A stretch of 64,000 nucleotides of DNA, taken from Firmicutes bacterium ASF500. GTDB taxonomy: Bacteria > Bacillota > Clostridia > Oscillospirales > Oscillospiraceae. Each line of letters opens with the position of its first letter. Position 1 is the first letter of the stretch. The notes under the pieces were generated by a model. It searched no databases and was not told where the DNA came from. It worked only from the letters and a program-made list of their open reading frames with translations. Where the stretch lies: contig CP097573.1 in NCBI GenBank assembly GCA_000492175.2, positions 1,984,001 through 2,048,000 of the forward strand, given 5' to 3'. Below, piece by piece: positions 36,219 to 52,261 of the stretch. A program made the position numbers and the translations under genes.

Positions 36219-36779
36219 CTACGATTTGTTAAAAGCCAAAATACGTATAATTGTAGCACCTTTTTCTCTCCACTTTCCAACCACCGAAAAGGCCATATGC
36301 TCCATGTTGTCGTCTTCAAAAAAGATACCCTTCAGATTGTTGATCACCACTTGGATAGCCCGATTGGAGGTATCCCACAATCGGGTATTGTTACTCCCCC
36401 TAGGGGTAATAATCTCGATTTCCACCATCGCCCTACCAAAATAGGGGAGAGGTTCCTGTTGTGCTGCCTCCGCAATCGCAGCATGGAGCATCGCTTTCCA
36501 GTGCTCCTCCACCGCCTCTGTCAGCTTCTTCATAGACGGCAGCGGCTCCGTAATTGTCAGCGTCACTACAGAATTTTCATTTCTTCCACCGCTATGTTCA
36601 TTTGCAATTCGTTCCGTAATCCCACCAAAGGTTTCCATGTCGTAAATGACCGACAGCAGTTGGCTTTGCAGCCGCAATGTCAGGTCGTACATTCTACGAA
36701 ATTGAGCTCCATTCGCCTCACCATTGTCTGGCAGACAGCGCTCAATCTGTACTATTGTCTTTTTTAGACAGATATTCAT
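36219..36779 (-). CDS. Hypothetical protein, possibly RusA-like
   Basis: 186 residues, no signal peptide or membrane segment. The N-terminal half is helical (IYDMETFGGITERIANEH). The C-terminal half (FGRAMVEIEIITPRGSNN ... DTSNRAIQVVINNLKGIFFEDDNMEHMAFSVVGKW) has the rhythm of RusA-type resolvases: an Asp-rich core with an ExDD-like motif and a final VxGKW...TIIRI strand. I cannot confirm this without a profile search. It lies beside mobilisation genes, so it may be a mobile-element gene. No ribosome-binding site stands out. Confidence 0.45.
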   Translation of the reverse strand: MNICLKKTIVQIERCLPDNGEANGAQFRRMYDLTLRLQSQLLSVIYDMETFGGITERIANEHSGGRNENSVVTLTITEPLPSMKKLTEAVEEHWKAMLHAAIAEAAQQEPLPYFGRAMVEIEIITPRGSNNTRLWDTSNRAIQVVINNLKGIFFEDDNMEHMAFSVVGKWREKGATIIRILAFNKS

Positions 36780-36982
36780 AAAACTGTGTCCCCTCCAATT
36801 CTATCACGTCCGGGTATCTTCCCTTAACAAGAGCATACAAAAACACGACAATGAATGGACTGTCAACCTTACGCAAAACACCGCTTCCGACAAAAACCGG
36901 AGCGGTGTTTTTGTATATCTTCTGGACACCGTGACCAGAAGGGACCCGCCCATTTCCCCGCTTCCTCCACGGAGTCTCTGCT

Positions 36983-37127
36983 GGATGTATCCCCCGTCGC
37001 CGCGCCACCCATAGCACAGCCGGGACAGCCTGTCAAGGGCAAAGCCGCCGCCGTGCGGCGGTGCTCCGCACCCTTGACAGGCTGTCCCGGCTGTGCTACC
37101 TCCTAAGGCGCGACGGGGGATATATCC
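36983..37127. repeat. Long inverted repeat upstream of mobC
   Basis: Perfect 28-base arms (37012-37039 and 37071-37098, starting TAGCACAGCCGGGACAGCC) enclose a GC-rich loop that holds its own GCCGCCG/CGGCGG stem. Imperfect outer arms (36983-37006 and 37107-37127, CCCCCGTCG type) extend the structure to about 145 bases. No gene is called in 36780-37354; the only open frames there run through this repeat. Probably a relaxosome-related or transcription-blocking structure of the mobile element. Confidence 0.8.
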
Positions 37128-37354
37128 TCCAGAGCCGCCCCCTTTCCCTGGATAGGGAAAGGGCGGGGGGATAGGGTCGAACCGCTTCCTCTCAAATCGC
37201 TGTCTTTCCACGGCTGATGTGTTGAAAATTAGCAATCTCAAAGCCTTGCCCCGCAAGGGTTTCCAGCTCCGGTTTTGTGTGGGCTGGTATAGTATCATTC
37301 CCCACCCCCGATTCATCGAAATACTGTCAACATTTGAATTTATGGGAGGTATCT

Positions 37355-37756
37355 ATGAGCAGTCAAAATTCAATGCCTTGCAGCCCTGAAAACCAGTCAA
37401 CACTGGTCGCTGGGAAAAAGCGTATTCGGAGTACGTCCGTCTGTGTCTGGCTGTCCCCGGATGAACAGGCAAAAATCCGAGAGCGCATGGCAGACGTGGG
37501 TATTCGCAATCTTTCAGCATATATGAGAAAAATGGCTCTCAACGGCTATGTGCTCCATGTTGATCTCGCGCCAGTCAAAGAGATTGTTTCCCTGCAAAGG
37601 CGGTGTGCAAATAATCTCAATCAAATTGCCGTCAGGGTGAATACCTGTGGCGGAGTTTACCCCGAAGAAATCAAGACCCTGCAAAAGGACTATACGGATT
37701 TATGGAGTCCCCTCTCTGAACTGCTGGAGAAACTTTCGGAGGTAGTGGCGCTGTAA
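37355..37756 (+). CDS. mobC: MobC-like relaxosome accessory protein
   Basis: 133 residues from the ATG at 37355 after GGGAGG. The N-terminal part matches the ribbon-helix-helix style of mobilisation proteins (TSVCVWLSPDEQAKIRERMADVGIRNLSAYMRKMAL), followed by the MobC signature ANNLNQIAVRVNTCGG and a coiled C-terminus. MobC binds near oriT and assists relaxase nicking. The relaxase gene that normally follows is absent; instead an oriT-like stretch and chromosomal-type genes follow, so this is a stranded piece of a mobilisable element. Confidence 0.85.
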   Translation: MSSQNSMPCSPENQSTLVAGKKRIRSTSVCVWLSPDEQAKIRERMADVGIRNLSAYMRKMALNGYVLHVDLAPVKEIVSLQRRCANNLNQIAVRVNTCGGVYPEEIKTLQKDYTDLWSPLSELLEKLSEVVAL

Positions 37757-39050: not shown

Positions 39051-39689
39051 ATGCCCAAGAAAATTGTCATTCTCAATGGCAGTCCCCGCAGAAACGGAAA
39101 CACCTCCGCGCTGGTTAAAGCGTTTACCAATGGCGCGGAGAGCGTCGGCCATACTGTAACAGAATTTTTTCTGGATAGCATGAGCATCCACGGCTGCAAA
39201 GGCTGCTTTGGCGGACATAGCAGCAGAGAGTGTCCCTGTGTCCAGCGGGATGACATGGACAAAATTTATCCGGCGGTGCGGGAGTGCGATGTGATCGTGC
39301 TGGCAAGTCCGCTCTATTACTGGAACATGAGCGGTCAAATCAGAACTGCTGTTGACCGCCTGTTTGCTTTGGAAGAGGGGGATGGCAATCTTCTGCGGGG
39401 ACACAGCAGGGCTTCTGCTCTGCTGATGGCTGCGGAGGGCTGCGGCTTTGATGATGTTCTTCTTTACTATAATCACTTGATGGAGCATTTGAAGTGGGAT
39501 AATCTCGGCCATGTTCTTGCCGGAGGAAACGGAGACATAGGAGATATTGAGGGAAAAACCGAAGTATACATGGCCGGCACGGGGCACATCCCCGCCGACA
39601 CCAATGGCTCCTCCCCCAGGTCCGGGAGCTGGCGCAGCCTCCGCTCCAGGTTGGATTCTGCCCACACCTCCCGGCTGTCCACCGGCTGA
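39051..39689 (+). CDS. Second flavodoxin-fold NADPH reductase, 3' end replaced at a recombination junction
   Basis: Same family as the preceding gene: FMN loop ILNGSPRRNGNTSALV, cysteine motif GCKGCFGG ... CPCVQRDD, flavin loop ASPLYYWNMSGQIRTAVDRLF. Homology ends at GDIGDIEGKTEV (about base 39565). The remaining ~40 codons are antisense to the baseplate gene and unrelated. The natural end of this family is only about 15-20 residues beyond that point, so the enzyme may still fold. Co-transcribed with the first reductase. Confidence 0.85.
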   Translation: MPKKIVILNGSPRRNGNTSALVKAFTNGAESVGHTVTEFFLDSMSIHGCKGCFGGHSSRECPCVQRDDMDKIYPAVRECDVIVLASPLYYWNMSGQIRTAVDRLFALEEGDGNLLRGHSRASALLMAAEGCGFDDVLLYYNHLMEHLKWDNLGHVLAGGNGDIGDIEGKTEVYMAGTGHIPADTNGSSPRSGSWRSLRSRLDSAHTSRLSTG

Positions 39690-41089
39690 TGATACTGATA
39701 GCTCAGCTTCAGCGTCCGGACGAAGGGGACAATGTAGCTCCCCCCCTGGGGGACCATAGCGGTGAGCTTGTCGATCCTGGCCCGGAGGAAGGGACCCTCC
39801 CAGGCCCCCACCGCCACGTCGGCCATATCTTGAGGACAGACAAAGCGCAGGGTCCGCCGGCGCTTTTCCGTCTCCTGGGGTGTGAAAAAGTCCTCGTTCT
39901 CCCCGGCGGGGAACAGCCGGGCCCAGCCCAGGCCGTTCCAGTACTCCCATATCACCCGCTCGACGCGCACATCCCGCTCCTCGGGGGCGGCGAAGTCCTC
40001 CTCGGTCATGAGACTCCGGTAGTGGATGTTGGCCTCCCAGTCGTAGGTACGCTCCACCGGAGTCTTGAAAAAGTCCAGCTCCGCCTCCAGCTCAATCTCC
40101 GCCCCGGCTTTGGAGAAAACCTCCCGGTCGGAGAGGCTGAGGCTGGTGAAGATGGACAGGATATCCCCGAAGGGGGAGAAGTCCCGCTTGGGCAGCTCGG
40201 TCACGCCGCACAGCAGGGCGTCGGGCTCCTGGGGGCCGCCCTGGGCCGTCCAGCTCACGCCGGTGAGGTGCAGTCCTCCCGGCGGCGGACGCAGGCGGCA
40301 GCGGAGCAGACCGCAGCGTTCGCCGTTCTCCTCCACCTCCACAGGGACGCTCCCCCGGTCCGCCGTCAGGCGGATGCCCTGGGAGGTGAGGGTCACCCGG
40401 TCCACCGGGCTCCAGCCCTCGCCGGTGTGGTACTCCCACTCCGCCAGGTCCCGGTCCATCAGGACCTCCAGAGCCCGTTCCAGCCGCTTGGCGGAGCGGG
40501 TGTGGGCAATGTGGACCGTCAGGTCCAGCCGGTCCCTGGTATAAAAGATCCGGTCCTCCCGGAAGTACAGCATATGGCGCTGCAGCTCCGGGTAGGCGTC
40601 GAAGTCAAACAGGCGGACGGGGGGATTGTCCTCCCTGGCCCGGTCGTAGGCACAGACAATGCTGTCCCGCAGGGCGCTGGTGAAGAATACCCGGTCCACC
40701 TCGGTGTCCAGGGCATAGACCGCCTCGGTGGTCTCATAGAACACCCGGCCGCTCTCCGTCCCGGCGGCGGCGTACACCACCGTGCCCTGGGGGATATGGA
40801 CCCCCTCGCCGCCGGGAATCACCCCTACGGTGACCATCCCCTTGGCGGGCGCGGGCGGCAGGAGGCGGGTCCCCAGTAGGTTCAGGAAGGCGAGGTAGTG
40901 GTTGCGCAGGGAGCGGTTGTACTTGCTGATGGTGTTCTCCATCTGCTCGGCGAAGATCCGGGCCAGCACACCGCCGGCGTCGGGCTGGCGGTCGTCCCAC
41001 CGCCACTCCGGGGTATAGCTGGCGGCCAGCTTGCGCACCTGCTCCAGAATATCCTCTCTGTCTCTCTCGTCCAGCTTGGGCGCGTCCAT
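39473..41089 (-). CDS. Baseplate J/gp6-like wedge protein of a contractile injection system, 3'-truncated
   Basis: 538-residue frame; genuine homology covers about 505 residues (41089 to ~39570). The N-terminus (DERDREDILEQVRKLAASYTPEW) and PDAGGVLARIFAEQMENTISKYNR match the J family of eCIS baseplate proteins, followed by beta-rich domains (EYHTGEGWSPVDRV; EYWNGLGWARLF). The end (TSVFPSISPMSPF onward) is antisense to the flavin reductase, so the true C-terminus is missing. In a complete system it joins gp25 in the baseplate wedge that triggers sheath contraction. It is the last eCIS gene present; later genes of the operon appear deleted. Confidence 0.88.
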   Translation of the reverse strand: MDAPKLDERDREDILEQVRKLAASYTPEWRWDDRQPDAGGVLARIFAEQMENTISKYNRSLRNHYLAFLNLLGTRLLPPAPAKGMVTVGVIPGGEGVHIPQGTVVYAAAGTESGRVFYETTEAVYALDTEVDRVFFTSALRDSIVCAYDRAREDNPPVRLFDFDAYPELQRHMLYFREDRIFYTRDRLDLTVHIAHTRSAKRLERALEVLMDRDLAEWEYHTGEGWSPVDRVTLTSQGIRLTADRGSVPVEVEENGERCGLLRCRLRPPPGGLHLTGVSWTAQGGPQEPDALLCGVTELPKRDFSPFGDILSIFTSLSLSDREVFSKAGAEIELEAELDFFKTPVERTYDWEANIHYRSLMTEEDFAAPEERDVRVERVIWEYWNGLGWARLFPAGENEDFFTPQETEKRRRTLRFVCPQDMADVAVGAWEGPFLRARIDKLTAMVPQGGSYIVPFVRTLKLSYQYHQPVDSREVWAESNLERRLRQLPDLGEEPLVSAGMCPVPAMYTSVFPSISPMSPFPPARTWPRLSHFKCSIK

Positions 41090-41124
41090 CTCCGTTCCCC
41101 CCTTCCTCAGATATCGGCCCGCCG

Positions 41125-41520
41125 TCAGCCGCCGGGCTCGTTCAGCTGGGCCCGCTCCTCCATCCGCTGGATTCGGCTGGGCTCCAGGTCCGTCACGTAT
41201 TCGATGTTCACCCGCACCTGGGTGTTATTCTCCGGAACCTGCGTCACCCCCACGTTGACCCCGATCACGTGCTCCTCCCAGAGCTGGATGCTCTGGGCCA
41301 GGGCCTCTGACATACGGTTGACCAGTACCAGGTCCACATTTTGAAACAGAAAGCGGTTCAGTCCCGCGCCGAAGTTGGGGCGCATTTTCCGCTCCCCGCG
41401 GTCGGTCTGTACGATCAGGCGGATGTCCTGACGCACGCAGCCGTCATCCTCCACCAGCTTCACCCGTCCGGTGGCCTCGTCCACCTCTACGGGGAAGGCC
41501 CAGCCGTTCAGCTGTCCCAT
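41125..41520 (-). CDS. gpW/gp25-family baseplate protein
   Basis: 131 residues. The gp25 core is clear: GWAFPVEVDEATGRVKLVEDD, then VRQDIRLIVQTDRGERKMRPNFGAGL and FLFQNVDLV ... ALAQSIQLWEEHVIGVNV. gp25 is the most conserved baseplate wedge component of phage T4, T6SS (TssE) and eCIS (Afp9 type), where it nucleates sheath assembly. It lies between the spike and J genes, in the usual contractile-tail order. Confidence 0.93.
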   Translation of the reverse strand: MGQLNGWAFPVEVDEATGRVKLVEDDGCVRQDIRLIVQTDRGERKMRPNFGAGLNRFLFQNVDLVLVNRMSEALAQSIQLWEEHVIGVNVGVTQVPENNTQVRVNIEYVTDLEPSRIQRMEERAQLNEPGG

Positions 41521-41596
41521 GCTCCTCCCGCCTTTCCGCTCCGCGCCGCCGGGGCGGCGTCTGTATTTTCTCGTCTCCCCTTCGGGAGAAACTGAA

Positions 41597-42343
41597 TCAG
41601 TTGACCTTCACGATAGCGCCCTTCAAGTTGGCCGGGCCGCTGGCCTCCAGGTTCAGCTGGCCGCTGGCTTTCACGTTGACGGCGCTCTTGCCCGACACAT
41701 CCACCTGCTGGCCGTCTATCTTGATGCTCCCGGAGGTCTTGATACTGATCTCCCCGCTGCTTCCGTTGAGCTCAATGGAGGCCTTGCCGCACTTGAGAGT
41801 CAGCTTGCTCTTGGCCTCTACTGTGACCGTCCCGCCGCCAATATCGATGACGACGCTGTTTTTCTTATCCTTGTCGGCCAGCTCGGCGGTCTGGGCCTTG
41901 TCGTCTATCACCAGATGGGTCTCTTTGGCGGTGAACAGCGTGATGCCCGGGGCATCCTGGCCGTCGTTCAGCTCCAGCCTGTGGCCCGTTTTGGACTTCC
42001 ACATCCGGACCTCGTTCTTCCCGTCCTGCACCGAGACCGGCGCGGGGTTTTTGGTGTTCCACAAGCACCCCAGCACGTAGGGGGCGGCGTAATCGCCGTC
42101 CAGAAAGCCCACCAGCACCTCGTCCCCCACCTCCGGCAGGGCGAACAAGCCGAACTGCTTGCCCACCGCCGGAGACATGACCCGGATGAAGTCCGTCTCC
42201 TGGGTGGAGTCCGTGCGGTTAATCAGGCGCACCTTCACCCGGTTTTTCTTGTCCGGGTCCTTGATGTCGGTGACCACCCCTACGGTGATACCGCATACGG
42301 GCTGGGTCTGCTGATCCTGAGACAGCATATCGTAGATACTCAC
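41597..42343 (-). CDS. gpV/VgrG-like spike protein
   Basis: 248 residues from a GTG start after GGAGGGAGACT. The N-terminal OB-fold (GITVGVVTDIKDPDKKNRVKVRL ... PEVGDEVLVGFLDGDYAAPYVLG) is the gp5/VgrG signature. A C-terminal region of short beta repeats (SIELNGSSGEISIKTSGSIKIDGQQVDVSGKSAVNVKASGQLNLEA, cited as a span around residues 185-240) forms the trimeric beta-helix needle. No lysozyme or other effector domain is fused. It should be capped by a PAAR protein, which is not found in the visible cluster. Confidence 0.92.
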   Translation of the reverse strand: MSIYDMLSQDQQTQPVCGITVGVVTDIKDPDKKNRVKVRLINRTDSTQETDFIRVMSPAVGKQFGLFALPEVGDEVLVGFLDGDYAAPYVLGCLWNTKNPAPVSVQDGKNEVRMWKSKTGHRLELNDGQDAPGITLFTAKETHLVIDDKAQTAELADKDKKNSVVIDIGGGTVTVEAKSKLTLKCGKASIELNGSSGEISIKTSGSIKIDGQQVDVSGKSAVNVKASGQLNLEASGPANLKGAIVKVN

Positions 42344-42364
42344 AGTCTCCCTCCTTCAAACCTG

Positions 42365-43465
42365 TCAGACCTTGCTTCCGGCAAACTGGATGGTGGTCTC
42401 AAAGCCCTCCACGTCCATGTGGTGGATCACACGGGTGATAAAGTAGTCCCGGTTAAAGCTCTTGTCCACTTTTCCGATGGTGACCATGTGGCCTGGGATC
42501 ACCGGCGGCATACCGGCAATCTCCATCTCGCCGGTGAGAAATCCCATGGCGGTCCCGTCGAGCAGGGCCTCCGCCCGTGTCTTGGCCTCCGCCTCCGACT
42601 GCACGGTGTTGTCCACCACCACCTTGGCCGACGCCTCCCCGATGAGCTTGGAGGAGTCCGCCCCGCTCTTGGAGCCGCCCCCCACCGCCGTCACGTTTAC
42701 CGCCTTGGACTCGAAGGGCTTGTCGGCGTCCTCCACGTTGTGGCTGCGCACCGTCACCGACTTCACCTGATGGGCCAGCGTGAGCTCCCGCCGCAGGCGG
42801 CGCAGGTTCCGTCCCGGCTCTACGGTGAGGACGCTGTCGGTGAATTTTTGATAGCTGACAAAGTACACCTTCCCCGCCGACACATAGAACAGATAGTTGT
42901 GCTTTCTGGCCAGGGCAACTACAAAGTCGTAGTCGCTCTGGTTGTGCTGCTCGATGGGGGCCTTCGCCTCGCCGGTGGCCTCCACCACCGTGCCGGTGTA
43001 CATGGAGCTGTAGCTCTTCAGAACATCGGCCACCGCCTCAGAGGCCTTTTTGATGTCCTTCTTCCGCAGGGAGCGGTAGCTGCTCATCATGAACTGCTTG
43101 CAGTCCATAGCCGTCACCAGCATGGACACCCGCTCCCCCTGAATATCCGTCTCCAGGGAGGAGATATAACCCACAAAGACCGACTCCGCCTTGCTCGCCT
43201 CGCCGTAGCCCATAAAGACCTCCAGCTTGGCCCCCAGAATCAGCTTGGACAGAGCCGCGTCCAGCTTCAGCTCCCCATCCTCAAAGCGGGAATACTGTCC
43301 CAGGATTTCCGCGGTACAGTCGCTGGCATCCATGCCGGCGGTGAGGGTGACCCGGACATCCTGATAGATCAGGCTCTTGCCGGACAGCTCGCTGTCGTTT
43401 ACCTTGAAGTAGACCACAGGGCGCTCAAAGCCGTTATACTTTTTTTCCGCTTCCCGCAGGTTCAA
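42365..43465 (-). CDS. gpD/gp27-like hub protein (phage late control D family)
   Basis: 366 residues, with a TTG start after GGAGG. Core motifs include VVYFKVNDSELSGKSLIYQDVRV, the DYDFVVALARKHNYLFYVSAGKVYF segment and a C-terminal GHMVTIGKVDKSFNRDYFITRVIHHMD module typical of gpD and the VgrG N-terminus. It links the tail tube to the spike as a trimeric hub. Adjacent to the spike gene (21 bases), as in other eCIS loci (Afp8 is a hub-spike fusion; here the two are separate genes). Confidence 0.92.
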   Translation of the reverse strand: MNLREAEKKYNGFERPVVYFKVNDSELSGKSLIYQDVRVTLTAGMDASDCTAEILGQYSRFEDGELKLDAALSKLILGAKLEVFMGYGEASKAESVFVGYISSLETDIQGERVSMLVTAMDCKQFMMSSYRSLRKKDIKKASEAVADVLKSYSSMYTGTVVEATGEAKAPIEQHNQSDYDFVVALARKHNYLFYVSAGKVYFVSYQKFTDSVLTVEPGRNLRRLRRELTLAHQVKSVTVRSHNVEDADKPFESKAVNVTAVGGGSKSGADSSKLIGEASAKVVVDNTVQSEAEAKTRAEALLDGTAMGFLTGEMEIAGMPPVIPGHMVTIGKVDKSFNRDYFITRVIHHMDVEGFETTIQFAGSKV

Positions 43466-43484
43466 GCGCCCCGCCTCCTTTCTT

Positions 43485-44219
43485 TCAGCCCGGCGGCTCC
43501 CGGATCATTCTGCCGCCCTCCTGTACCAGGCCCAGCAGCTTCTGGGTGGACATACTGACCCGCTGCTCGTCGTCCACCCCGGACAGCAGCGACAGCGACA
43601 CCTCCGTCCCCAGGGGCGCGCCCTGGTTGGAAAAATAGTTGAAGGTGGTCTGGAATTTGGTAATCAGGCCAGCGTAGATCAGGTTTCCCCAGTAAAAAAT
43701 CACCGGCACCTGCTTGTGGGCGGCTATAAGCAGGGGAGTGTAGCAGCACATTTCCGGGTTGAGCAGGCTGAAGCCTGTAAAATCGGTCTTGTTAATCAGG
43801 TCGTTTAACGCGCCCTCGGTGCTGTCCAGAAGGCTGGCGCCGCCCACAAGGCTGCTCACCATGCTCGTCGCCGCCGAGAGGAGGGCTTCGGCGTTCCCGC
43901 CCTTGACCTTCGCCTCATAGGCCTCCACCACGTTGAAAATCAGCTTCATCTCCACCGTCTGCTCGGTGATCCCTTTGGGGGTGATCTTGCCATCCGCATT
44001 CTGGCTCTTGGAGGTGGCCTCGTTGGCCGCGCCCTCCTCTTTCTTGGTCTGGGTGGAGGCCATGATCCGCAGCTCGCTGGGGTTGATGAGCACCTCCGCG
44101 GTCTGGTCAAAATCCCAGGTGCCGTCGGGCTTCTGCTTTGTCCCGATGGCGAAGGCGGCCTTGCTCAGCGTACCGAAGCGTCCGCCCACCGCGCTTTTAA
44201 TGGCTCCGATGTCTATCAT
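43485..44219 (-). CDS. Contractile injection system tube-initiator protein (Afp7/CIS_tube type)
   Basis: 244 residues. The CIS_tube N-terminal-like domain is seen in TAEVLINPSELRIMAS and in the later GLITKFQTTFNYFSNQGAPLGTEVSLSLL, a region shared with Afp7-like and LysM-tail proteins. An Ala/Gly-rich helical insert lies around residues 110-150. No C-terminal LysM motif is visible, unlike many relatives. In Afp/PVC this protein sits between hub and tube and starts tube polymerisation. The position before the hub gene agrees. Confidence 0.85.
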   Translation of the reverse strand: MIDIGAIKSAVGGRFGTLSKAAFAIGTKQKPDGTWDFDQTAEVLINPSELRIMASTQTKKEEGAANEATSKSQNADGKITPKGITEQTVEMKLIFNVVEAYEAKVKGGNAEALLSAATSMVSSLVGGASLLDSTEGALNDLINKTDFTGFSLLNPEMCCYTPLLIAAHKQVPVIFYWGNLIYAGLITKFQTTFNYFSNQGAPLGTEVSLSLLSGVDDEQRVSMSTQKLLGLVQEGGRMIREPPG

Positions 44220-44237
44220 GCGGGCTCCCTCCCTCCG

Positions 44238-46385
44238 TTACAGTCCGAACTTCCGCCGTTCCGCCCGCAGGCGGCGCTCCAGCCGGACCAGGATCTCCTC
44301 CGTAAGGCGGTTGTAATTAATACTCTCCTCCGCGCGGAGCGGGGGGACGCCGTCCGCCGGGAGCTGGCCGCGCTCCTCCCGCCGGCGCTCCGGCGCCTCA
44401 TAGGAGAATGCCTGTCCCAGCGCCCGGGCCTGGCCCGGGGTAACAGTCTGCGCCCGGAACACATCCTCGCCCTCCACCTGTCCCGGGAGAGCCGGCGCGG
44501 ACGCCGGCTCTCCCGCCAGGGACCCCGGCCGGGCGGGACTGCGGTAGACGATCACCGGGTTCCCCTCCGTACGCTCAGGCGTCAGGACAGATTGGACATA
44601 TGTCTCGCCGTCCCGCTCTCCTTGCGCCTTCTCCGCCTCCGGGCGGCGGGAGCTATGGCCGCTCCTCTCCGGAACAGAGCGCTTCCCGTAGGGCCGCTCC
44701 CCCTCCGGAAGCAGCGCGGCCTCCTTCGTCTCCGGTTCCGTCCCATGCTTTTGCCGGAACAGCCGGTACAAAATATGGTTTCTCGTCCAGGTCTCCCGGA
44801 CGAAGGTATCTGTCTCTCTTCGAACGAATACCCCCCTGCGCTCCACCAGCCGCGCGCACCCATCTGTCCGTGTTTCGAACACACTGGGGCCGCTTTCCAA
44901 AAGCACCGGCCGGAAGATTTCCGGGCCGTTTGGGAGCGCCGTCCACCGGTAATTCTCCGAGACATTTCGGAAAACCTTACGTCCAACGAACTCCGGCGGC
45001 GTTTCCCCGACGATTCGCTTAAAGACCTCCGGTACGCTCCGCTTTATAATCTGCCGGTAGACCTCCGGCGTGCTCCGCCTTAAAACCTGCCGGTAGACCT
45101 CCGGCGCGCTCCGCTCTATAACCCGCCGGTAGACCTCCGGCGCGCTTCGCTTTATAACCCGCCGGTAGACCTCCGGGGCACTCCGTTCTATGACCTGCCG
45201 GTAGACCTCTGGGGCACTCTGCTCTATGAACTGCCGGTAAACCTCCGGCGCGCTTCGCTCTATAACCTGCTGGTAAGCCTCTGGAGGCATCCGCTCTATC
45301 AGCTGTTTCCGAACCTCTTGGAGACTTCGTTTCACCAGCTGACGGTAAAGCGTCAAGCCGCCCCGAGCCGGGCCCTGCCAGTGGACTGTCCGAACCGTCT
45401 CGCCAAAACTGCCCGGGACCAGGAGACCGCTGACGCGGTATATGGCCCGTTCCGACGCTGTGGGCTGTGGCAGCAGCCGCACCTCCGGCGGTAGTCCGTC
45501 CGGGGCTGTGTATTCTTCAAATGTGTATCCTTCCGCCGGGTATGCTTCCGGTGTGTGCCCTGTGAATTCCCGGACCGGGCCCTCCCGGTGAAGGAAGGAA
45601 ATACCGTTGGAATCTATCTGTGTCTCACGGACAAAGGTTATTGCCCCGCTGGGCAGCTGTTCCTTGTGGAGCGCCGGAATGAACCGGAGCGCCCCGCTCC
45701 CTCCCGCCGGCACGACCCGAACGGTGGAGATGTCCCGAAATACCTCCCCGCTGACGGCGGTGTACGCCTTTCCCAGGATCTGACGCCAAAATGTCCGAGA
45801 ATCCCGCGCCGCTGTGGGCCGGTGAGGCTCTAACGCGCTTTGTGCCGGGACAAGCCGAGCTGTCCCCGAGACGCTTGGCGTCAGGATCAGCCGGGTGTCC
45901 GCCAAGATGCTCCCGGGTACGCTCTGCGGCTCCGCCGGAACCTCCCGGAAAACCGAGGCCATCCGCAAAATCCGCTCCGGCACCCTTTGGGAAGCCATCT
46001 GACGAAACCTATCCGCAACGCTTCTCAAGCCCTCCCGCCGGGAGAGCACCCCCGGCATCCGTTCCAGTACCCGCCGGTAAATTTCCAAGCCATTCCGCCC
46101 CAGCGCCTGACGCCAGACGCTGAGAACGCCTTCGCCGGGGGGTTGAATGACGCTGTCCCGATCAAGCAGCTGTCCCGCCGCCGTGACCTGGGGCAGCAGC
46201 CGTACCTCTGGGGACAGGCTGTCCAAGGCGGTTTCTTCCCCGGAAAGGCCCGGGCTCCTCCAGACCAAGGCTGTGACGCTGTGGGACTGTATCCATGTCT
46301 CGCTGCCAAACGCCGGCCTCTCACCGGGGAGCTCCCCTACATGGAACATTGGGTTGGACCGTAAGACCGCTCTGGTTTCTCCCAC
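44238..46385 (-). CDS. Large repeat protein of the eCIS locus with 12-residue tandem repeats
   Basis: 715 residues from a GTG at 46385; an ATG at 46349 is an alternative. No signal peptide or membrane segment. About eight tandem 12-residue units of type RSAPEVYRQVIE occupy roughly residues 350-460. Two older, larger repeats are visible as PEVRLLPQVTAAGQ (about 59) and PEVRLLPQPTASER (about 300), each followed by similar sequence ending in ERMP. The C-terminus (ESINYNRLTEEILVRLERRLRAERRKFGL, about the last 29 residues) is a conserved-looking amphipathic helix that could dock on the tube or baseplate. I recognise no known family. Its place between tube and tube-initiator genes is where a tape-measure or luminal cargo gene would be expected. 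Confidence 0.75.
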   Translation of the reverse strand: MGETRAVLRSNPMFHVGELPGERPAFGSETWIQSHSVTALVWRSPGLSGEETALDSLSPEVRLLPQVTAAGQLLDRDSVIQPPGEGVLSVWRQALGRNGLEIYRRVLERMPGVLSRREGLRSVADRFRQMASQRVPERILRMASVFREVPAEPQSVPGSILADTRLILTPSVSGTARLVPAQSALEPHRPTAARDSRTFWRQILGKAYTAVSGEVFRDISTVRVVPAGGSGALRFIPALHKEQLPSGAITFVRETQIDSNGISFLHREGPVREFTGHTPEAYPAEGYTFEEYTAPDGLPPEVRLLPQPTASERAIYRVSGLLVPGSFGETVRTVHWQGPARGGLTLYRQLVKRSLQEVRKQLIERMPPEAYQQVIERSAPEVYRQFIEQSAPEVYRQVIERSAPEVYRRVIKRSAPEVYRRVIERSAPEVYRQVLRRSTPEVYRQIIKRSVPEVFKRIVGETPPEFVGRKVFRNVSENYRWTALPNGPEIFRPVLLESGPSVFETRTDGCARLVERRGVFVRRETDTFVRETWTRNHILYRLFRQKHGTEPETKEAALLPEGERPYGKRSVPERSGHSSRRPEAEKAQGERDGETYVQSVLTPERTEGNPVIVYRSPARPGSLAGEPASAPALPGQVEGEDVFRAQTVTPGQARALGQAFSYEAPERRREERGQLPADGVPPLRAEESINYNRLTEEILVRLERRLRAERRKFGL
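45010..45345 (-). repeat. 36-bp tandem repeats inside the 715-residue protein
   Basis: About eight in-frame 36-base units (core GCCGGTAGACCTCCGG on the plus strand) encode PEVYRQVIERSA-like peptides. Because the period is a multiple of three, other frames are open here too. Confidence 0.9.
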
Positions 46386-47632
46386 CAGCAGGCTCGGGCT
46401 CCAGGAAGGTTCCGAATGAGGGGCCAGTTGAACGGGGCAAACGCCCGCCGCACAACCCGCCGCCAGATCTGAAGCGGCAGAACATCCCAGCGCGGTCCCG
46501 GGTCCCCGGCCATCCGAAGCTTCTGGTGGAATCCCAAGCTCTGAACGGTCTCAAATACCTGCCCTGCCTTCTGGGCCTCGACTGTTCGCACCGTCCGTTC
46601 TATCTCCGGGATATGGACGCTTTGTGTCTCCCGATGGGTTTCCCAGGCCCAGGCGGTCTGGACAATCCGCTCCGTCTCCGGAGCTTCGACTATCCCCGTC
46701 TCCCGGCGGGTTTCCGTGGTCCGGGCCACCTGGACAGTCCGCTCCGCCTCTGGAGTTTCGACTATCCGCGTCTTCCGGCGGGTTTCCGTGGCTTGGACCG
46801 CCTGGACAGTCCGCTCCGTCCCTGGAGTTTCGACTATCCGCGTCTCCTGGCGGGTTTCCGTGGTCCGGGCCACCTGGACAGTCCGCTCCGCCTCTGGAGT
46901 TTCGACTATCCGCGTCTTCCGGCGGGTTTCCGTGGCTTGGGCCGCCTGGACAGTCCGCTCCGTCTCCGGAGCTTCGGCTGTCTGCGTCTCCCGGCGGGTT
47001 TCCGTGGCTTGGACCGCCTGGACAGTCCGCTCCGTCTCTGGAGCTTCGACTATCCGCGTCTCCCGGCGGGTTTCCGCAGTCCGGACCGTCTGGACAGTCT
47101 GCTCCGTCTCCGTGGTCTTGCCCTTGCGGTCCTTTCGACGCCGCTTGGCGGATCGGGACGTCTCCTCTTCCTGTCCTTCCCGGCCACGGGGCGGCTCCGG
47201 GGCAAGCACCCCGGTCTCCCTCTGGAGGTACGCGAGCCGCTCCCTGCTCCACTCCTCCCGGGTCCGGTGCGCCTCGGGGGACACACGCTCCTCCGCCTTT
47301 CGGACCGCGTTTGGATGGGACGCTGTCCGGCGGGGGACGCACTCCTCCTGGCGCATACCAATGGACCGCAGCGTCTCACTCCGGTGCATTTGTATGCGCA
47401 AGAAGTCCTCCGGTCTTTCCGCCCGCGCCGTCCAGCCCTTTTTCTGTCGGGAGGGGCCGCCGCCCCAAAGGCTGGTTTCCCCTTCGGACTGGGGCCGGCT
47501 CAGGCTAACGCTGTTTTTTTTACTTCCTGCTCCAGCTGCTTTAGCGCGCGGCTGAACTCCTCCTCCTGGACCAGACTGGTTCGAATGGCCCGCTCGATCT
47601 CCCCTGCCTGGGCCTGTACCGCACCGCCGCAC
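46337..47632 (-). CDS. Charged repeat protein of the eCIS locus with 24-residue tandem repeats
   Basis: The open frame covers 431 residues, but the first ~44 overlap the upstream gene, so translation probably enters near 47510 by frameshift or starts at an internal ATG (for example IQMHRSETL). The N-terminal part is basic and Pro/Ser-rich. Residues ~196-375 are about seven and a half units of 24 residues (ERTVQAVQATETRRKTRIVE type), rich in Glu, Arg and Thr and probably extended or helical. The C-terminal 60 residues are Trp/Arg-rich (LPLQIWRRVVRRAFAPFNWP). It overlaps the start of the 715-residue gene by about 49 bases. Third-position GC supports this frame among the several open ones. No known family is recognised. 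Confidence 0.65.
   Translation of the reverse strand: MRRCGTGPGRGDRAGHSNQSGPGGGVQPRAKAAGAGSKKNSVSLSRPQSEGETSLWGGGPSRQKKGWTARAERPEDFLRIQMHRSETLRSIGMRQEECVPRRTASHPNAVRKAEERVSPEAHRTREEWSRERLAYLQRETGVLAPEPPRGREGQEEETSRSAKRRRKDRKGKTTETEQTVQTVRTAETRRETRIVEAPETERTVQAVQATETRRETQTAEAPETERTVQAAQATETRRKTRIVETPEAERTVQVARTTETRQETRIVETPGTERTVQAVQATETRRKTRIVETPEAERTVQVARTTETRRETGIVEAPETERIVQTAWAWETHRETQSVHIPEIERTVRTVEAQKAGQVFETVQSLGFHQKLRMAGDPGPRWDVLPLQIWRRVVRRAFAPFNWPLIRNLPGARACWWEKPERSYGPTQCSM
46565..47120 (-). repeat. 72-bp tandem repeats inside the 24-residue-repeat protein
   Basis: Seven to eight units with 72-base period, for example TGGAGTTTCG at 46751 and again at 46823. Unit-to-unit divergence is mostly at synonymous or conservative positions. 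All six frames remain open across the array. Confidence 0.92.
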
Positions 47633-47952
47633 TGGCTGAGCACCTGATGAAGCCGGGCCGTCACCTGGGCCTGGGTGGCCTGATTGGTACGCAGGAAAAA
47701 GTTGTTCTGGTCACAGCTGGCCCGCAGCTGCATGAGCAGGTTCACCACCACCGAGGGCCGCTCCGACTGCCCCTCCCCCTCCTGACCCTGGACGGGCAGG
47801 ACATAGGTCAGGGACTCCAGGCTCGCCTGCGGTCCCCTTTCCCGGCCCTCCAGCAGCCTCGCGCAGAAGGCCGCGTTGTTCCCCGTCAGGATGGAGAAGG
47901 ACGTATTCAGCTCCAATTTGCCCAAAGTGGGCCTGAAGTCCGCAATGGCCAT
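47500..47952 (-). CDS. Small eCIS-locus protein of unknown function, possible frameshift partner
   Basis: 150 residues, soluble. The N-terminal part (IADFRPTLGKLELNTSFSIL) is followed by a Gln-rich helical region (FFLRTNQATQAQVTARLHQVLSQCGGAVQAQAGEIERAIRTS, described here as a span from about residue 90) and a C-terminal coiled segment (SRALKQLEQEVKKTALA). I do not recognise the family. Position after the second tube gene and before the repeat proteins parallels tail assembly chaperones. It ends at an A8 run that could let ribosomes continue into the repeat protein. Confidence 0.7.
   Translation of the reverse strand: MAIADFRPTLGKLELNTSFSILTGNNAAFCARLLEGRERGPQASLESLTYVLPVQGQEGEGQSERPSVVVNLLMQLRASCDQNNFFLRTNQATQAQVTARLHQVLSQCGGAVQAQAGEIERAIRTSLVQEEEFSRALKQLEQEVKKTALA
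47514..47521 (-). promoter_or_regulatory. A8 slippery tract at a gene junction, candidate -1 frameshift site
   Basis: On the coding strand the codons GTA AAA AAA ACA end the 150-residue gene. A -1 slip on A-AAA-AAA moves into the frame of the 24-residue-repeat protein, bypassing the TGA at 47500-47502. Tail assembly chaperones of many phages use such slips just before the tape-measure gene. Confidence 0.5.
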
Positions 47953-47976
47953 ATCCGCTCCTCCTCTCTCGGGTCC

Positions 47977-48459
47977 TCAGAAGAAATTGGGGACCGGTAT
48001 GTTCTTCAGGCCCCGGTGGGCGACGGTAAAGGTCTCGATCAGCGGAGTGGCCCGGGAGGCGTTCAACTCGCTGACCTGCCACTCCAGCACACCCTGGGAG
48101 ATGAAGGAGTAGATGGCCTTGATCTCCTGCCGCTCGTCCAGCACCAGAATCAGGCCCAATGCCGGGTTGGCCTCAATGGCCTGAGCGCCCATGTACTGGG
48201 ACAGCAGCCCGGTGATGCTCAGCTCCCGCATCTGGTAGCCCCGCTCGAACGTGAGGCGGAAGGGCTCCGCCTGGGGCTTGGGGATCATAATGGGGTAGTC
48301 GTTGCGGCCCCCCTCGCTGATGAAGTCCACCGAGCGCTGGGTACCGATGCCGGACACGCGCTGAAAGCCCAGGGTGGACATATTAAACAGCACGATAAAG
48401 CGCACGCCGGAGATAGGGGTATAGTGCCCGCTGCGGGAGACGAAAAACGGTACCTTCAT
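47977..48459 (-). CDS. Tail tube protein, second paralogue (gp19/Afp5 type)
   Basis: 160 residues. The fold signature is shared with the tube protein at 49099: FIVLFNMSTLGFQRVSGIG at the start, a beta-strand rich middle (YPIMIPKPQAEPFRLTFERGYQ) and the end WQVSELNASRATPLIETFTVAHRGLKNI. eCIS loci often carry two or three tube paralogues, the minor ones forming the tube-baseplate adaptor. Probably such an adaptor. Confidence 0.88.
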   Translation of the reverse strand: MKVPFFVSRSGHYTPISGVRFIVLFNMSTLGFQRVSGIGTQRSVDFISEGGRNDYPIMIPKPQAEPFRLTFERGYQMRELSITGLLSQYMGAQAIEANPALGLILVLDERQEIKAIYSFISQGVLEWQVSELNASRATPLIETFTVAHRGLKNIPVPNFF

Positions 48460-48471
48460 AGCCCCCTCCTC

Positions 48472-49024
48472 TCAGAATACGTCAAAGATGTTCTTGCCCT
48501 GGGTCTCCTGGTTCATGCGGCTGTTGATCTGGGACACCTCCCGGCAGAACCGCAGGCGTTCCTTATGCTCCAGATTCATCAGCTCCTCATAGCCCCAGTG
48601 CAGATAATATCCAAGAAAAGCTATCTCCTCATAGACCCGGTCCAGAGGGTAGCTTTTTGCTATTCCCCCAGGGGGGCACCTCGATCTTGAATTTCTCTCC
48701 GCAGGAGGGACAGGTAACCTCCACCCGGATGGGCTCCACGGCGTTAATCTGCTGATAGAGGTTTTGCAGATAGGCCATGTCGGCGGAGGGGAGCTTTTCA
48801 ATCAGCTTATTGTCGATGGCGGGCACAGTGCCCAGACTTGTGATCACCCGGGTCATGAGCACGATGCTGAGGTAGGCGGGATTCTGCTGCACACGGGGGT
48901 CCTTCAGCGGGAGGATTTCGTCGGCCGCCGTGGCCAGGCGCATCGTCCCTTCCTTGTGGACCATTCCGCTCTCGTCCATGTAGCCCTTGGGCAAGATAAA
49001 GGGGTATTCTGTCTGATAAGCCAT
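48472..49024 (-). pseudogene. Zinc-ribbon tail assembly protein plus DUF6760-like region, joined across a frameshift
   Basis: The first frame starts at the ATG 49024 (MAYQTEYPFILPKGYMDE) and carries a two-cysteine motif (VTCPSCGEKFKIEVP) typical of eCIS tail assembly proteins, then runs into PPWGNSKKLPSGPGL. The second frame contains YPLDRVYEEIAFLGYYLHWGYEELMNLEHKERLRF, which matches the DUF6760-type proteins that follow this gene in Afp-like loci. The switch point is a C6-TG5 stretch near 48665. One C fewer gives a single fused protein; two fewer would end the first gene with EVPLGE. No start codon precedes the second part, so either an indel or recoding is involved. Confidence 0.75.
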
Positions 49025-49098
49025 ATTGGTCACCTTTCTGTCACAGCGTTGTCAAAGCGGGCGGGGCCGGCCCTGTCAGCCGGCCCCGCTTCAGCAAA

Positions 49099-49521
49099 TT
49101 AGTCTGTTCTGGTCAGGCCCTCGTGGGCCAGCTCAATGGTCTCAATGGCGATTTCGGAGGCGGTGCCGTTGAAGTCGGGCGCGGTGTACTTCACCGGCCA
49201 GGCGTTGATACACCGCCAGGAGGCCGCGGGGGAGCCCTCCTCGTCCAGGGCTGTCAGGGTGACGGTCTTTTTCTCAATGGTGCCCTCCGTGATGTCAATG
49301 AGCCAGTCGTAGAGGACCATGGTCTCGGCGGCGCCCCACTTCAAGGTGATGTTGCCGTACTTAATCAGGCCGGGGAGCTTGGTAGGAGTGATGGCCGGGT
49401 CGTCGCCGGCGCGGTACTCCACCACGTCGATGGTGGCGTCAAAGCCGCTCACCTCGCTGAAGCTGCCGGCGTCCAGGCCGTCGATCTCCAGCCGGAATCG
49501 AAAATTTCTATAGGGAAGCAC
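49099..49521 (-). CDS. Tail tube protein, main paralogue (gp19/Afp1 type)
   Basis: 140 residues. Recognised by YRNFRFRLEIDGLDAGSFSEVSGFD, VVEYRAGDD, KLPGLIKYGNITLKWG and ETIELAHEGL, the conserved tail tube family core shared by T4 gp19, T6SS Hcp and eCIS tube proteins. It stacks in hexameric rings inside the sheath. It lies directly downstream of the sheath gene (19 bases), as in contractile tails. Confidence 0.95.
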   Translation of the reverse strand: MLPYRNFRFRLEIDGLDAGSFSEVSGFDATIDVVEYRAGDDPAITPTKLPGLIKYGNITLKWGAAETMVLYDWLIDITEGTIEKKTVTLTALDEEGSPAASWRCINAWPVKYTAPDFNGTASEIAIETIELAHEGLTRTD

Positions 49522-49540
49522 TGTTCATCCCGCTCCTTTC

Positions 49541-51323
49541 TTATTCACCGGTCTTCTGGGTCAGGCGGAAGATCACAAACTCGGCGGGCTTCACCGGGGC
49601 GACGCCGATGACACAGATCAGCCGGCCGTTGTCGATGTCGTCCTGGGTCATGGTGGCGCTGCCGATGTTCACAAAGAACGCGTCGGCGGCCGTAGCGCCG
49701 GCCAGGGCCCCGCTCTTCCACACGCCCTCCAAAAAGACCTCGATGGTGCGGCGCACCCGAATCCAGAGCAGCTCGTCGTTGGGCTCAAAGACCACCCAGT
49801 TGGTGTTGGCCTTGATGGACTCCTCCAGGAAGATGAACAGACGGCGGACGTTGACGTACTTCCACAGGGGCTTGGAGCTGGCGGTGCGGGCGCCCCAAAC
49901 CCGGATTCCCTGGCCGGGGAAGCGGCGGATCAGGTTGACGCCGTTGGGGTTGAGCATGTCCTGCTCGGCGGTGTTGTAGGTGACGGACAGGCCCGTGCAG
50001 TTGGCCACCGTCTCATTGGCGGGGGCCTTGTGGACGCCCCGGGTGTTGTCGCTGCGGGCGAAGATGCCCAGCACGGAGCCGGAGGGCGGGATAAAGGCGT
50101 CCCGCTTGTCCAGAGGGTCGAACACCTGGAGCCAGGGGTGGTACATGGCGCAGTAGTCGCTGTCCACGATGTTCCGGTGGTTCATGATATCGGTGACGCT
50201 CTTGGCGTCCTGGGGCATATCCAGCACGGCGAAGCGGCTGCCCAGGTTCTCGCAATGGGCCACTAGGGAAAGCTGGACGTTGGGGGCCACGATGCCGGGC
50301 ACCGCCATCAGAGACACGTCGCTGTTGTCCAGGAAGGCCTGGATACCGGTACGAGCGCCGGGGCCGTTGTCCACACCGATGAAATCCCCGTCGGTGAGGG
50401 AGGACTGGGTACCGTTGAAGCCGCCGCTGAGCTGGAGCTTCATGACGCCGGCGGGGAGGGCAGGAGCGGCGGCGGGGACGGCGTCCTCATCCTCGTCATC
50501 CCCGCTGCCGCCGCCGGTAACTGGGGCGGCAGCTTCCACCGCTGAGCAGGTCCACCGGGTCGACGGGGTCCTTGCCGGGCAGGGCGGTCACATCCACCAG
50601 CTCCGACTTGCTCATCAGCTTCTCGATGTAGTTGGGGATGGTCACGTTAAAGGAGGCGTTGTCATAGGTCTCCACGGTCTCGCCGCAGCGGACCTCCACA
50701 AGCATCTCACAGGAGCGGACGGTCACCTTGGGCAGCAGAGCGGTGTCCACCACCTGGGAGGCCGCGAAGGGCTTGACCATGGTGACGTTGCTGCCCTCCA
50801 TAGCGGCGATCATGTTGAATTCCCGGTCGCCGCCGTTCTCCAGCACCACCACATCGCCTACGTGGAAATCCACCACGCTCTTAAAGCCATAAATGCCCTC
50901 GGCGCCCTCAGTCAGGATCTGGGTCTTGGCCTTACTGGCGCTGGTAATGGTCACCACCACGCCGTTGCCCCAGGCGCCGGGGTTCTTGGCCTGGAAGGTG
51001 AGCTGCCTGCCGCAGCCGGCCTTGGCCACCTTGGCGTCGGGCGGAGCCACCCGCATCACGAAGGCCCGGGCGCCGCCGTTGGCGAAGAAATGGTTCACCG
51101 CGTGGGCCAGGTAGCGGTACTCGCCGAACTCGCTCTTTTGGAGATATCCGCCGAACTTTCGGGCAAAGTCCGCCGCGCCGGTCACAAACACGGGGGCTCC
51201 GGTCACCGGGCCCTTCTCCGCCAGGCCAACAAAGCCGGCGGTGCTGGTGCCCACCCCCTGCATCGGGGCAGGGCCGCTGTCAAATTCCTCTACATATACG
51301 CCGGGAGATAAATATTCCGCCAT
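49541..51323 (-). pseudogene. Contractile tail sheath protein, frameshifted
   Basis: The typical start MAEYLSPGVYVEEFDSGP is at 51323, with the sheath N-terminal domain (GTSTAGFVGLAEKGPV; FANGGARAFVMRV). The first frame stops at 50496. The C-terminal half (VIKAnTNWV-type core: YVNVRRLFIFLEESIKANTNWVVFEPND, then LICVIGVAPVKPAEFVIFRLTQ) is in another frame and open from about 50539. Removing one G near 50533 (SGG to SV) joins DPVDLLS to VEAAAPVTGGG and gives about 593 residues. The extended Asp/Pro/Ala-rich loop at the join is unusual. If the shift is real, no full-length sheath is made and the particle cannot contract. Confidence 0.9.
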
Positions 51324-51373
51324 ACGCTTTCGATCCGTCCACACCGCGGCCTGGCCGCAGTCCCCGGATCATT

Positions 51374-52261
51374 TCAACTCCTTTCTTTCCTTAGCTCCTG
51401 TTCCTGTTGTTCCTCCTCGGGCTGGAGCGATTCCTCCAGCTCCGGGAAAAAACCGTCCTCCATCGCCTGCCTGCGCATCTCCTCCCATTTCTTTTTGATG
51501 TAAAGCTGGTAGTCCTCCGTGCGGGTGTGCTCTTTGGCCTGGGCCACCGCCTTGGCGAATTTCACCCGAAATTCCCGCTGCTTCTGCTCTTTTTTTCCCG
51601 CCAGAGCGGCGGCGGCAGAGGCCGCGCCGTGAAGGGCCGTCCGGCCGTCCACGGAGCTGTGCTCCAGGGCGCTCAGCTCCCTTGCCCGGTTCCGCTCCCT
51701 TCGAGCGTTCTGGAAGGGCAGGACCCGGTCCATGGTGGTGTCTCCCCCGTTTCGGGCCGACATGCGGCCGAAACGGTTCATGACCATTCTGGGGGTCCGG
51801 GCCGCCTCGCAGCGCAGCTCCATAGCCCCGGTGGAGAAGTCCCCGTCGTTGCTCCGGAACCGCTCCCGGCCCTGGATGCCCTGGACCCGGGCACGGTTCT
51901 CCACCACCTCCCGCCCCTCGGCGTCGTTCTCGTGGCGGACGAAGATGAACACCATGTCCTTCTTTTTTTCATCAAAGCCGATGTCCGCCCGGCCCGTGGT
52001 CAGCTGGAGCTGGCCGGCCAAACGCGGCAGCTCCGACCTGGGAGCACAGCAGGAGGGCTTTACGCTGCTCACCCGGCTGTCCTCCCGCTCCGAGGGGCGG
52101 AACTGGATGCGCTGGGAGGACTCGCAGTCCAGGTCTTGAAGATACTGGCCCGTGGACTGCTTCCCCAGGGCGCTGACCACCTCGTGGTCGCCGGCCGCCC
52201 TGGCCCATTTCTGTTTTCCGGGGGGCCTCCCGTCCCTTTTCTGACGTTCCTGATAGGCCAT
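51374..52261 (-). CDS. First gene of the eCIS operon, unknown function
   Basis: 295 residues, hydrophilic, no signal peptide. The N-terminus is Arg/Lys/Gln-rich, the central part has FDEKKKDMVFIFVRHENDAEGREVVENRAR, and the C-terminal third is a long charged helix (VKFAKAVAQAKEHTRTEDYQLYIKKKWEE) ending in Glu/Gln repeats. No family is recognised. It starts the minus-strand operon, 50 bases ahead of the sheath start. It might be an assembly factor, a cap-related protein or a cargo; the basic N-terminus resembles disordered eCIS signal regions only loosely. Confidence 0.7.
   Translation of the reverse strand: MAYQERQKRDGRPPGKQKWARAAGDHEVVSALGKQSTGQYLQDLDCESSQRIQFRPSEREDSRVSSVKPSCCAPRSELPRLAGQLQLTTGRADIGFDEKKKDMVFIFVRHENDAEGREVVENRARVQGIQGRERFRSNDGDFSTGAMELRCEAARTPRMVMNRFGRMSARNGGDTTMDRVLPFQNARRERNRARELSALEHSSVDGRTALHGAASAAAALAGKKEQKQREFRVKFAKAVAQAKEHTRTEDYQLYIKKKWEEMRRQAMEDGFFPELEESLQPEEEQQEQELRKERS

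Follow-up and report, generated by a model that had tools for sequence, protein, structure and literature searches.

The described contractile injection systems (CIS) closest to the locus treated here are those of haloarchaea (Hb CIS), which belong to clade IIa and have Bacillota among their closest relatives (PMC11566945), and CIS-Sc of Streptomyces (PMC10066040). Extracellular CIS (eCIS) are known in Bacillota from Ruminiclostridium and Paenibacillus (PMC8213781), and a metagenome survey assigned human-gut CIS mostly to Bacteroidota and one to Proteobacteria (PMC12210884). The slot between Cis5 (the second tube protein) and Cis7 (the tube initiator) encodes the plug Cis6 in Afp, AlgoCIS and the Anabaena system. 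This plug, named after Afp6, fills the spike cavity as a trimer in AlgoCIS and Anabaena, its C-terminal part being a helix that contacts initiator and hub and a flexible loop reaching the tube lumen; without Cis6, AlgoCIS particles were not found (PMC8894135, PMC8894136). CIS-Sc forms uniform 268-nm particles, no tape measure gene being reported (PMC12237407, PMC10066040), and Hb CIS are likewise reported to be without one (PMC11566945). The locus compared with these systems lies on the minus strand of a 64,000-nucleotide stretch of Firmicutes bacterium ASF500 (contig CP097573.1, positions 1,984,001 to 2,048,000; this whole stretch is called the window, and its numbering is used throughout). 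It is almost certainly the 5′ (front) half of an eCIS operon, left as a remnant, and at the place of the plug gene it carries the pieces of what is almost certainly one giant gene.

Read from 52261 down to about 39566, the locus holds a first gene without family match, sheath, tube 1, a chaperone-like open reading frame (ORF), DUF6760 and tube 2, followed by ORFs of 150, 431 and 715 aa, tube initiator, hub, spike, gp25 and a J-like protein (families called with Pfam, NCBIfam and PHROGs). Sheath, tube, initiator, hub, spike, gp25 and J-like genes thus occur together, the sheath split and J truncated. A contig scan with the initiator led to relatives in three metagenome-assembled genomes (MAGs), called Oscillospiraceae (L005), Candidatus Ventrousia excrementavium (L006) and Clostridia (L007), for which the "gut Clostridium" of the original prediction is a loose term. 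Their genes are 47% (150-aa ORF) to 96% (tube 1) identical to those of the window, the 431- and 715-aa ORFs left aside.

The view that the locus derives from an eCIS and not from a prophage has been borne out. The continuation of the L007 operon, L016, encodes Tail_P2_I and Pvc16_N besides two J-like proteins, an eCIS_core protein of 845 aa and an AAA+ ATPase, and ATPase plus Pvc16_N is what separates eCIS from phage tail regions (PMC10020575). The nearest solved sheath is 9ezm (E 8e-95), from a haloarchaeal CIS (PMC11566945), followed by 8bky (E 4e-85), that of CIS-Sc (PMC10066040); the sheaths of Afp, Pvc and Anabaena (All3325) come next, with E between 4e-48 and 1e-44, in keeping with the earlier statement that the locus differs from Afp, PVC and MAC loci. 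A remnant of a prophage or R-type tailocin could also show contractile-tail gene order, and mobilisation-type relics do lie nearby at 36219–37756 (NikA/MobC-like; weakly RusA-like). This origin has a vanishingly small probability, since the pyocin sheath matches only at E 2e-13, since the relatives carry Pvc16_N, AAA and eCIS_core, and since relatives are missing from viral collections: initiator and L007 central protein had no match in 50,697 phage records, and profiles of the initiator and of the N-terminal domain of the central protein found no relative in IMG/VR. Capsid, portal, terminase and lysis families are absent from the locus ORFs scanned, and capsid, portal and terminase families, of which linked genes in related genomes would have pointed to a phage, are also absent from 20 proteins of the relatives scanned at E up to 0.05. 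Indeed, the intact relatives contradict a prophage or tailocin. With Hb CIS and CIS-Sc the window shares sheath, spike, gp25 and J; with Haloferax (L054) it shares the order tube, chaperone, DUF6760; and its relatives, as these systems, carry Pvc16_N, AAA and eCIS_core. Unlike them, the window copy is without everything beyond mid-J. Moreover, Hb CIS are reported to have no gene in the Cis6 slot at all (PMC11566945), whereas the clostridial loci have a giant ORF there.

The centre of the locus had been read as two repeat proteins of 431 and 715 residues. The ORFs and their tandem repeats are real (a 72-bp unit in 6.7 copies, 46626–47110, and a 36-bp unit in 7.7 copies, 45023–45299), but the sequence comparison leaves virtually no doubt that both ORFs, together with the 150-aa ORF preceding them, are one gene. 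The closest homologue, P0012 (1223 aa), matches the three ORFs in order. Piece 1 (47500–47952, 150 aa), with the conserved N-terminal domain, is 78% identical to P0012 residues 1–150. In piece 2 (46337–47632, 431 aa), which contains 24-residue repeats from the 72-bp unit, residues 38–230 correspond to P0012 residues 145–334 (53%), and in piece 3 (44238–46385, 715 aa), which contains the 36-bp unit and the conserved C-terminus, residues 200–715 correspond to residues 708–1223 (53%). Because of this in-order alignment, and because the span 44238–47952 amounts to about 1,238 codons, the three ORFs are taken to be one gene broken twice. L007 and L005 have a single ORF between tube 2 and initiator, of 1078 and 977 aa, respectively, and L090 likewise has one large ORF there; in the L006 genome this interval is interrupted by the ends of contigs.

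With residues 1–170 of the L007 central protein as query, a protein search yielded 12 proteins, 10 of them single ORFs of 957–1223 aa that run from the conserved N-terminus through the conserved C-terminus; of the other two, P0003, encoded on a contig of 3978 bases, ends prematurely and P0010 is chimeric. In P0010 (Candidatus Avoscillospira sp. LCP25S3_F1) residues 1–783 are central protein (71% to P0007), fused in frame to the last about 140 residues of Tail_P2_I (residues 782–923, 81% to L005); it may represent a second degenerate locus, such as a deletion from initiator through hub, spike and gp25 to J would leave, or an assembly fault. A wider sample came from a DUF6760 search of the class, which matched 16 of 391 genomes at 17 places; of the 16 that lie outside the own genome 13 were fetched, together with the G160 locus (G687, G628 and G809 were left out). 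All 13 complete clostridial intervals (L077–L082 and L084–L090; L083 is cut by a contig end) contain one ORF of 436–1859 aa between tube 2 and initiator, ORFs of at least 150 aa being counted. Two separate new repeat proteins, for which the two long ORFs open in the window speak and, in part, the interval of a Paenibacillus locus (L039) with its two overlapping ORFs of 352 and 532 aa, are therefore scarcely credible: P0012 and nine further homologues span the same interval as one protein, and for the family of the central gene the P0012 alignment contradicts such a division. The earlier statement that the central ORFs belong to no known family stands, with no Pfam family, no PHROG and one chance-level NCBIfam match for the ORFs and no Pfam match for whole homologues.

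The central gene of the window occupies the slot between tube 2 and initiator, as Cis6 genes do. In seven full-length Oscillospirales proteins pairwise identity is 55–61% in the first 150 residues and 16–23% in middle blocks, and of 70 invariant columns 43 lie in the first 150 residues, 22 in the last 90 and 5 in the 717 middle ones; judged from these sequences, only the ends of the Oscillospirales form are conserved. The C-termini of the slot proteins share a helix-like segment (L/I-x3-V/L), a step resembling E-x-R-L and a basic end of the form R-R/K-x-G, and they are likely homologous across the clostridial proteins. For example, a profile–profile comparison of Oscillospirales with other C-termini gave 88% probability over 29 columns (E 2.9e-6; a single pairwise comparison), and a profile of 12 distant clostridial C-termini ranked the Paenibacillus ORF first of 1671 ORFs (E 6.5e-8). 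A profile of Oscillospirales C-termini only missed the distant ones and listed an unrelated ORF alone, at E 0.82. The Paenibacillus sequence (L039, 17643–20185) is a long low-complexity stretch with a similar basic C-terminus, in two overlapping ORFs in the same slot.

A structure model of P0006 (957 aa), made from a 7-row alignment, has helices within its first 146 residues and another at the C-terminus (933–955; pLDDT of the block 70–91); residues 199–914 are below pLDDT 50, and the mean is 37. The middle of the protein is weakly predicted to be unstructured. A model of the N-terminal domain (mean pLDDT 55, pTM 0.42) was, like that of P0006, too poor for a fold search, and the best match of this domain to PDB sequences had E 0.38. 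The best PDB match of the C-terminal motif, 6j98 (E 0.0025, an alignment of 29 residues to P8, a protein of 77 aa), was judged unrelated. The clostridial protein thus resembles the Cis6 plug (Afp6, Alg6, Pvc6) in its slot between Cis5 and Cis7 and in a C-terminal helix, here only predicted. It differs in size, the Cis6-slot ORFs of Cereibacter (L055) and Streptomyces clavuligerus (L038) having 59 and 70 aa versus 436–1859 aa, and no sequence link between the two was found.

In working systems the central gene would accordingly encode a giant occupant of the Cis6 plug slot. Through its conserved C-terminal helix the protein would be docked at the spike cavity and at the tube initiator, the gene for which lies immediately downstream. 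During assembly its long part, which is made up of repeats and not conserved, would extend up the tube lumen and act there as a tape measure or filler, which the studied clade-II systems reportedly do without; in the Oscillospirales form the far end may be marked by the conserved N-terminal stretch of approximately 145 residues. Since the gene is in the Cis6 slot, has a predicted C-terminal helix and encodes hundreds of extra residues, a plug whose N-terminal side fills or measures the lumen is the simplest reading. By analogy with Cis6, a lumen protein anchored by its C-terminus is somewhat favoured; that it is a tape measure is a more tentative suggestion, for which the odds are rather below even. 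A broken half of an eCIS operon with a giant plug-slot protein, taken as a whole, is in our opinion the best explanation, if by a modest measure. As in the case of the Afp14 tape measure, a large protein is proposed to be in the tube, but no relative of Afp14 was identified in these loci. In Afp, the Afp14 gene sits after the baseplate genes.

Several observations weigh against a plug-anchored lumen protein or tape measure. The profile of 12 distant C-termini found the C-terminus of the window only at E 0.35 and did not list those of L005, L007 and L090. Searching the PDB with the C-terminal motif returned no plug chain, which is a weak test with so short a motif, and the 59-aa Cis6-slot protein as query gave nothing useful. 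Positive net charge, considered as a mark of a lumen protein, holds for only 18 of 21 slot proteins, the other 3 being negative. In Streptomyces NBC_01324 (L058, 14053–17115) a comparable low-complexity ORF of 1020 aa, its C-terminus similarly basic, lies one gene position earlier, ahead of tube 2. Within the genus g193 the slot proteins vary from 436 to 1017 aa, a more than twofold spread that is odd for a tape measure unless particle length varies. Finally, phage tape measures are usually long helical or coiled-coil proteins, and such a body was not seen in the central protein, the middle being predicted as unstructured (from the 7-row alignment, which makes this a weak point).

The central protein could also be a cargo or effector that is loaded into the tube like Tme of Streptomyces davawensis and has no structural role as plug or tape measure. 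Tme is an effector that binds spike and initiator; in its giant size, its mostly disordered state and the place of its gene shortly upstream of the baseplate genes (PMC11126660), it recalls the clostridial protein. The fast-changing middle would fit cargo, and CIS-Sc reaches its uniform length with no tape measure gene reported (PMC12237407). However, Tme has DUF4157, hydrophobic segments and a nuclease domain (PMC11126660), none of which Pfam finds in the clostridial Oscillospirales-type protein; indeed, no toxin domain was found there with Pfam. A separate 845-aa eCIS_core protein is present in the L016 operon, and the slot gene is found in 13 of 13 clostridial intervals, more like a structural component than an exchangeable cargo. 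A Tme-like cargo is on these grounds unlikely, and the anchored lumen protein is retained. If the slot protein does measure the tube, the clostridial gene would be a candidate for length control in clade-II eCIS, for which the Streptomyces and haloarchaeal systems are reported to have no tape measure gene (PMC12237407, PMC10066040, PMC11566945).

The window does not contain an intact particle locus, as had been assumed, half of the operon not being found in the whole genome. There are four frame breaks, one in the sheath, one in the chaperone and two in the central gene. The sheath, one ORF of 569–589 aa in L007, L019 and L090, consists in the window of two ORFs in different frames: an N-terminal piece of 282 aa (50496–51344; phrog_23), residues 8–267 of which correspond to 1–259 of the 569-aa L007 sheath, and a C-terminal piece of 332 aa (49541–50539; PF04984, PF17482), residues 15–332 of which correspond to 248–569 (88.5%). 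The chaperone-like ORF (48629–49033; phrog_508, E 2.9e-8) matches the 121-aa ORF of L007 over residues 4–123 (86%), departs after residue 123 from the frame of the relatives and ends with 11 codons in a frame that these do not use. The original prediction, all of whose contractile-tail families were recovered, had missed the split sheath and this frame departure.

At its far end the locus stops within J (39566–41089; TIGR02243 at 42 bits, below the curated cut-off), of which only the N-terminal half is present: the match to L005–L007 covers residues 1–508 of 998–1002-aa homologues at 58–60% identity. The locus start given earlier, 39565, is in fact a junction (39560–39570) produced by a deletion or rearrangement that cuts both J and a flavin reductase. 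The DNA homology of the reductase gene (39051 onward, plus strand) stops in five related stretches at 39561–39567; among the 120 listed of 3012 homologues the reductases have 178–191 aa and cover at most 87% of the 212-aa ORF of the window, and among those listed the fused tail is private to the window. The own genome is one contig of 3,665,928 bases, 96.8% complete, in which neither the remainder of J nor the second J-like protein was found. The tail terminator Pvc16_N (PF14065) and eCIS_core (DUF4157), a cargo protein that many but not all eCIS have, also had no match in it, but each matched in four of four relatives (G060, G061, G062, G160); because Pvc16_N is absent here and present there, the window is considered a remnant and not part of a full-set eCIS. 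The AAA+ ATPase of the operon is present in L016 and absent from the truncated stretch of the window, the own genome not having been searched for it. The eCIS operon of this genome is very probably no longer functional.

It should be noted, however, that a gene for a solute-binding protein outside the locus is split too (31112–31654 and 31651–32463, minus strand), which counts against decay of the locus as the sole cause, and some of the frame breaks may thus be sequence errors. If all of them were, and if the junction, with its private reductase tail, were a misassembly, the strain would have a working eCIS. We consider this improbable because a single-contig genome of high completeness yielded neither the rest of J nor the second J-like protein, Pvc16_N or eCIS_core, and because two long ORFs in other parts of the window, of 1828 and 971 aa, are intact; the missing half of the operon is harder than the frame breaks to explain by sequence errors. 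The decayed locus thus remains the preferred interpretation, the two supposed new proteins being a product of gene breakage. The split solute-binding protein gene adjoins two ABC permeases, and its parts cover PF01547 positions 16–199 and 218–305. An empty-site search with the flanking histidine kinase matched 1 of 61 genomes of the genus, the own one.

A second feature of the clostridial loci concerns the chaperone and DUF6760. In phage lambda the tail chaperone G is extended to G-T by a programmed −1 frameshift, and the arrangement of chaperone and DUF6760 in clostridial eCIS is similar. In all 15 loci compared (L077–L089, L007 and L090) the DUF6760 frame is −1 relative to the chaperone ORF and overlaps its end, and in 14 of them the stretch from the upstream stop to the conserved beginning of DUF6760 has no ATG, GTG or TTG, the exception being L007 with one GTG. 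An in-phase element is found at most 30 nt from the end of the chaperone ORF in each of the 15: A_AAT_TTT in 4, T_TTT_TTA in 1 and GGGGGA in 10; of 199 other long ORFs in these loci, 2 have such an element. The elements were chosen after inspection of the sites, and L084–L087 and L089 are of one genus and not independent. In addition, GGGGGA is not a canonical two-tRNA heptamer. To judge by frame and sequence, chaperone and DUF6760 are likely joined by a programmed −1 frameshift in clostridial eCIS. In some loci there are internal starts within the DUF6760 domain, from which a shorter separate DUF6760 product may be made. Haloferax (L054) and Streptomyces (L058) have DUF6760 annotated with its own start in a 4-nt overlap, as has Deinococcus (L056) the corresponding small ORF. 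In the window the DUF6760 stretch (48472–48690; PF20546, E 5.9e-14), placed by frame comparison, has an unconvincing start of its own; within the copy at 48629–48801 the slippery element is out of phase, and this copy is not counted as frameshifting. A frameshifting chaperone would, if true, tie eCIS assembly to phage-tail assembly. The joint proposal, that clostridial eCIS share a giant plug-slot component which is the missing clade-II tape measure, plus a lambda-like chaperone frameshifted by −1 into DUF6760, is put forward with reserve, as something that may well turn out otherwise.

Among 394 genomes of the order the N-terminal domain of the central protein was found in 4, and the same 4 have a close tube initiator, a result in favour of the co-occurrence that the original prediction had proposed to look for. 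The initiator profile matched 9 of the 394, the 4 with the domain at E values no higher than 1.9e-114 and a further five with E between 6e-5 and 4e-4; one of these five, G130, holds a true, more distant eCIS, and the other four lie outside the comparison. In 60 genomes (the own, 36 of the same genus and 23 of the order) the initiator of the window had a strong match only in the own one, and two of the same genus matched weakly (E 5e-4 and 7e-4). Since the three other members of the order that share the N-terminal domain belong to family f13 and not to that of the window, the locus was likely acquired horizontally. The Clostridia MAGs add to the known carriers of CIS, Candidatus Ventrousia excrementavium coming from chicken material to judge by its species epithet. 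The comparison also reveals a conserved, unnamed gene of clostridial eCIS at the place of an essential plug. In the literature searched, most subscription journals lying outside it, no description of a giant Cis6-slot protein or of an eCIS frameshift was found among the papers listed, nor any paper on an eCIS with a tape measure in Clostridia, and the one paper that brings CIS together with an Oscillospir- name has this name in the title of a cited reference; within the limits of these searches, the giant gene and the frameshift are undescribed.

The first gene of the locus (51374–52261, 295 aa) is conserved, with 62% and 53% identity to the genes at the same pre-sheath place in L007 and L090, and its product had no match in Pfam, NCBIfam or PHROG. 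Such a gene of about 300 aa stands directly before the sheath in the window, in L007 (2286–3266) and in L090 (582–1478); in other Clostridia the gene preceding the sheath differs. Both tube proteins are gp19-like: tube 1 (49099–49521; PF06841, E 2e-43) is 96% identical to that of L007, and tube 2 (47977–48459; PF06841, E 5e-11) 76–79% to those of L007 and L005. The Cis7-like initiator (43485–44219; PF19266, CIS_tube) is 57–62% identical to those of L005–L007, and the gp27-like hub (42365–43465; PF05954 and PF24032, both below the cut-offs) 74–79% to those of the relatives. The gpV-like spike (41597–42343; PF04717, E 1.2e-23) and the gp25-like wedge protein (41125–41520; PF04965, E 3.4e-15) lie between hub and J.

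Elsewhere in the window, two transposases on the minus strand (9172–10731 and 27626–29182; 519 and 518 aa, both with PF13751, PF05598 and PF01609) flank a region for fatty-acid synthesis and beta-galactosidase, and a T-box leader (RF00230; 6630–6833) lies upstream of a gene for a class II tRNA synthetase with an anticodon-binding domain (7015–8439).

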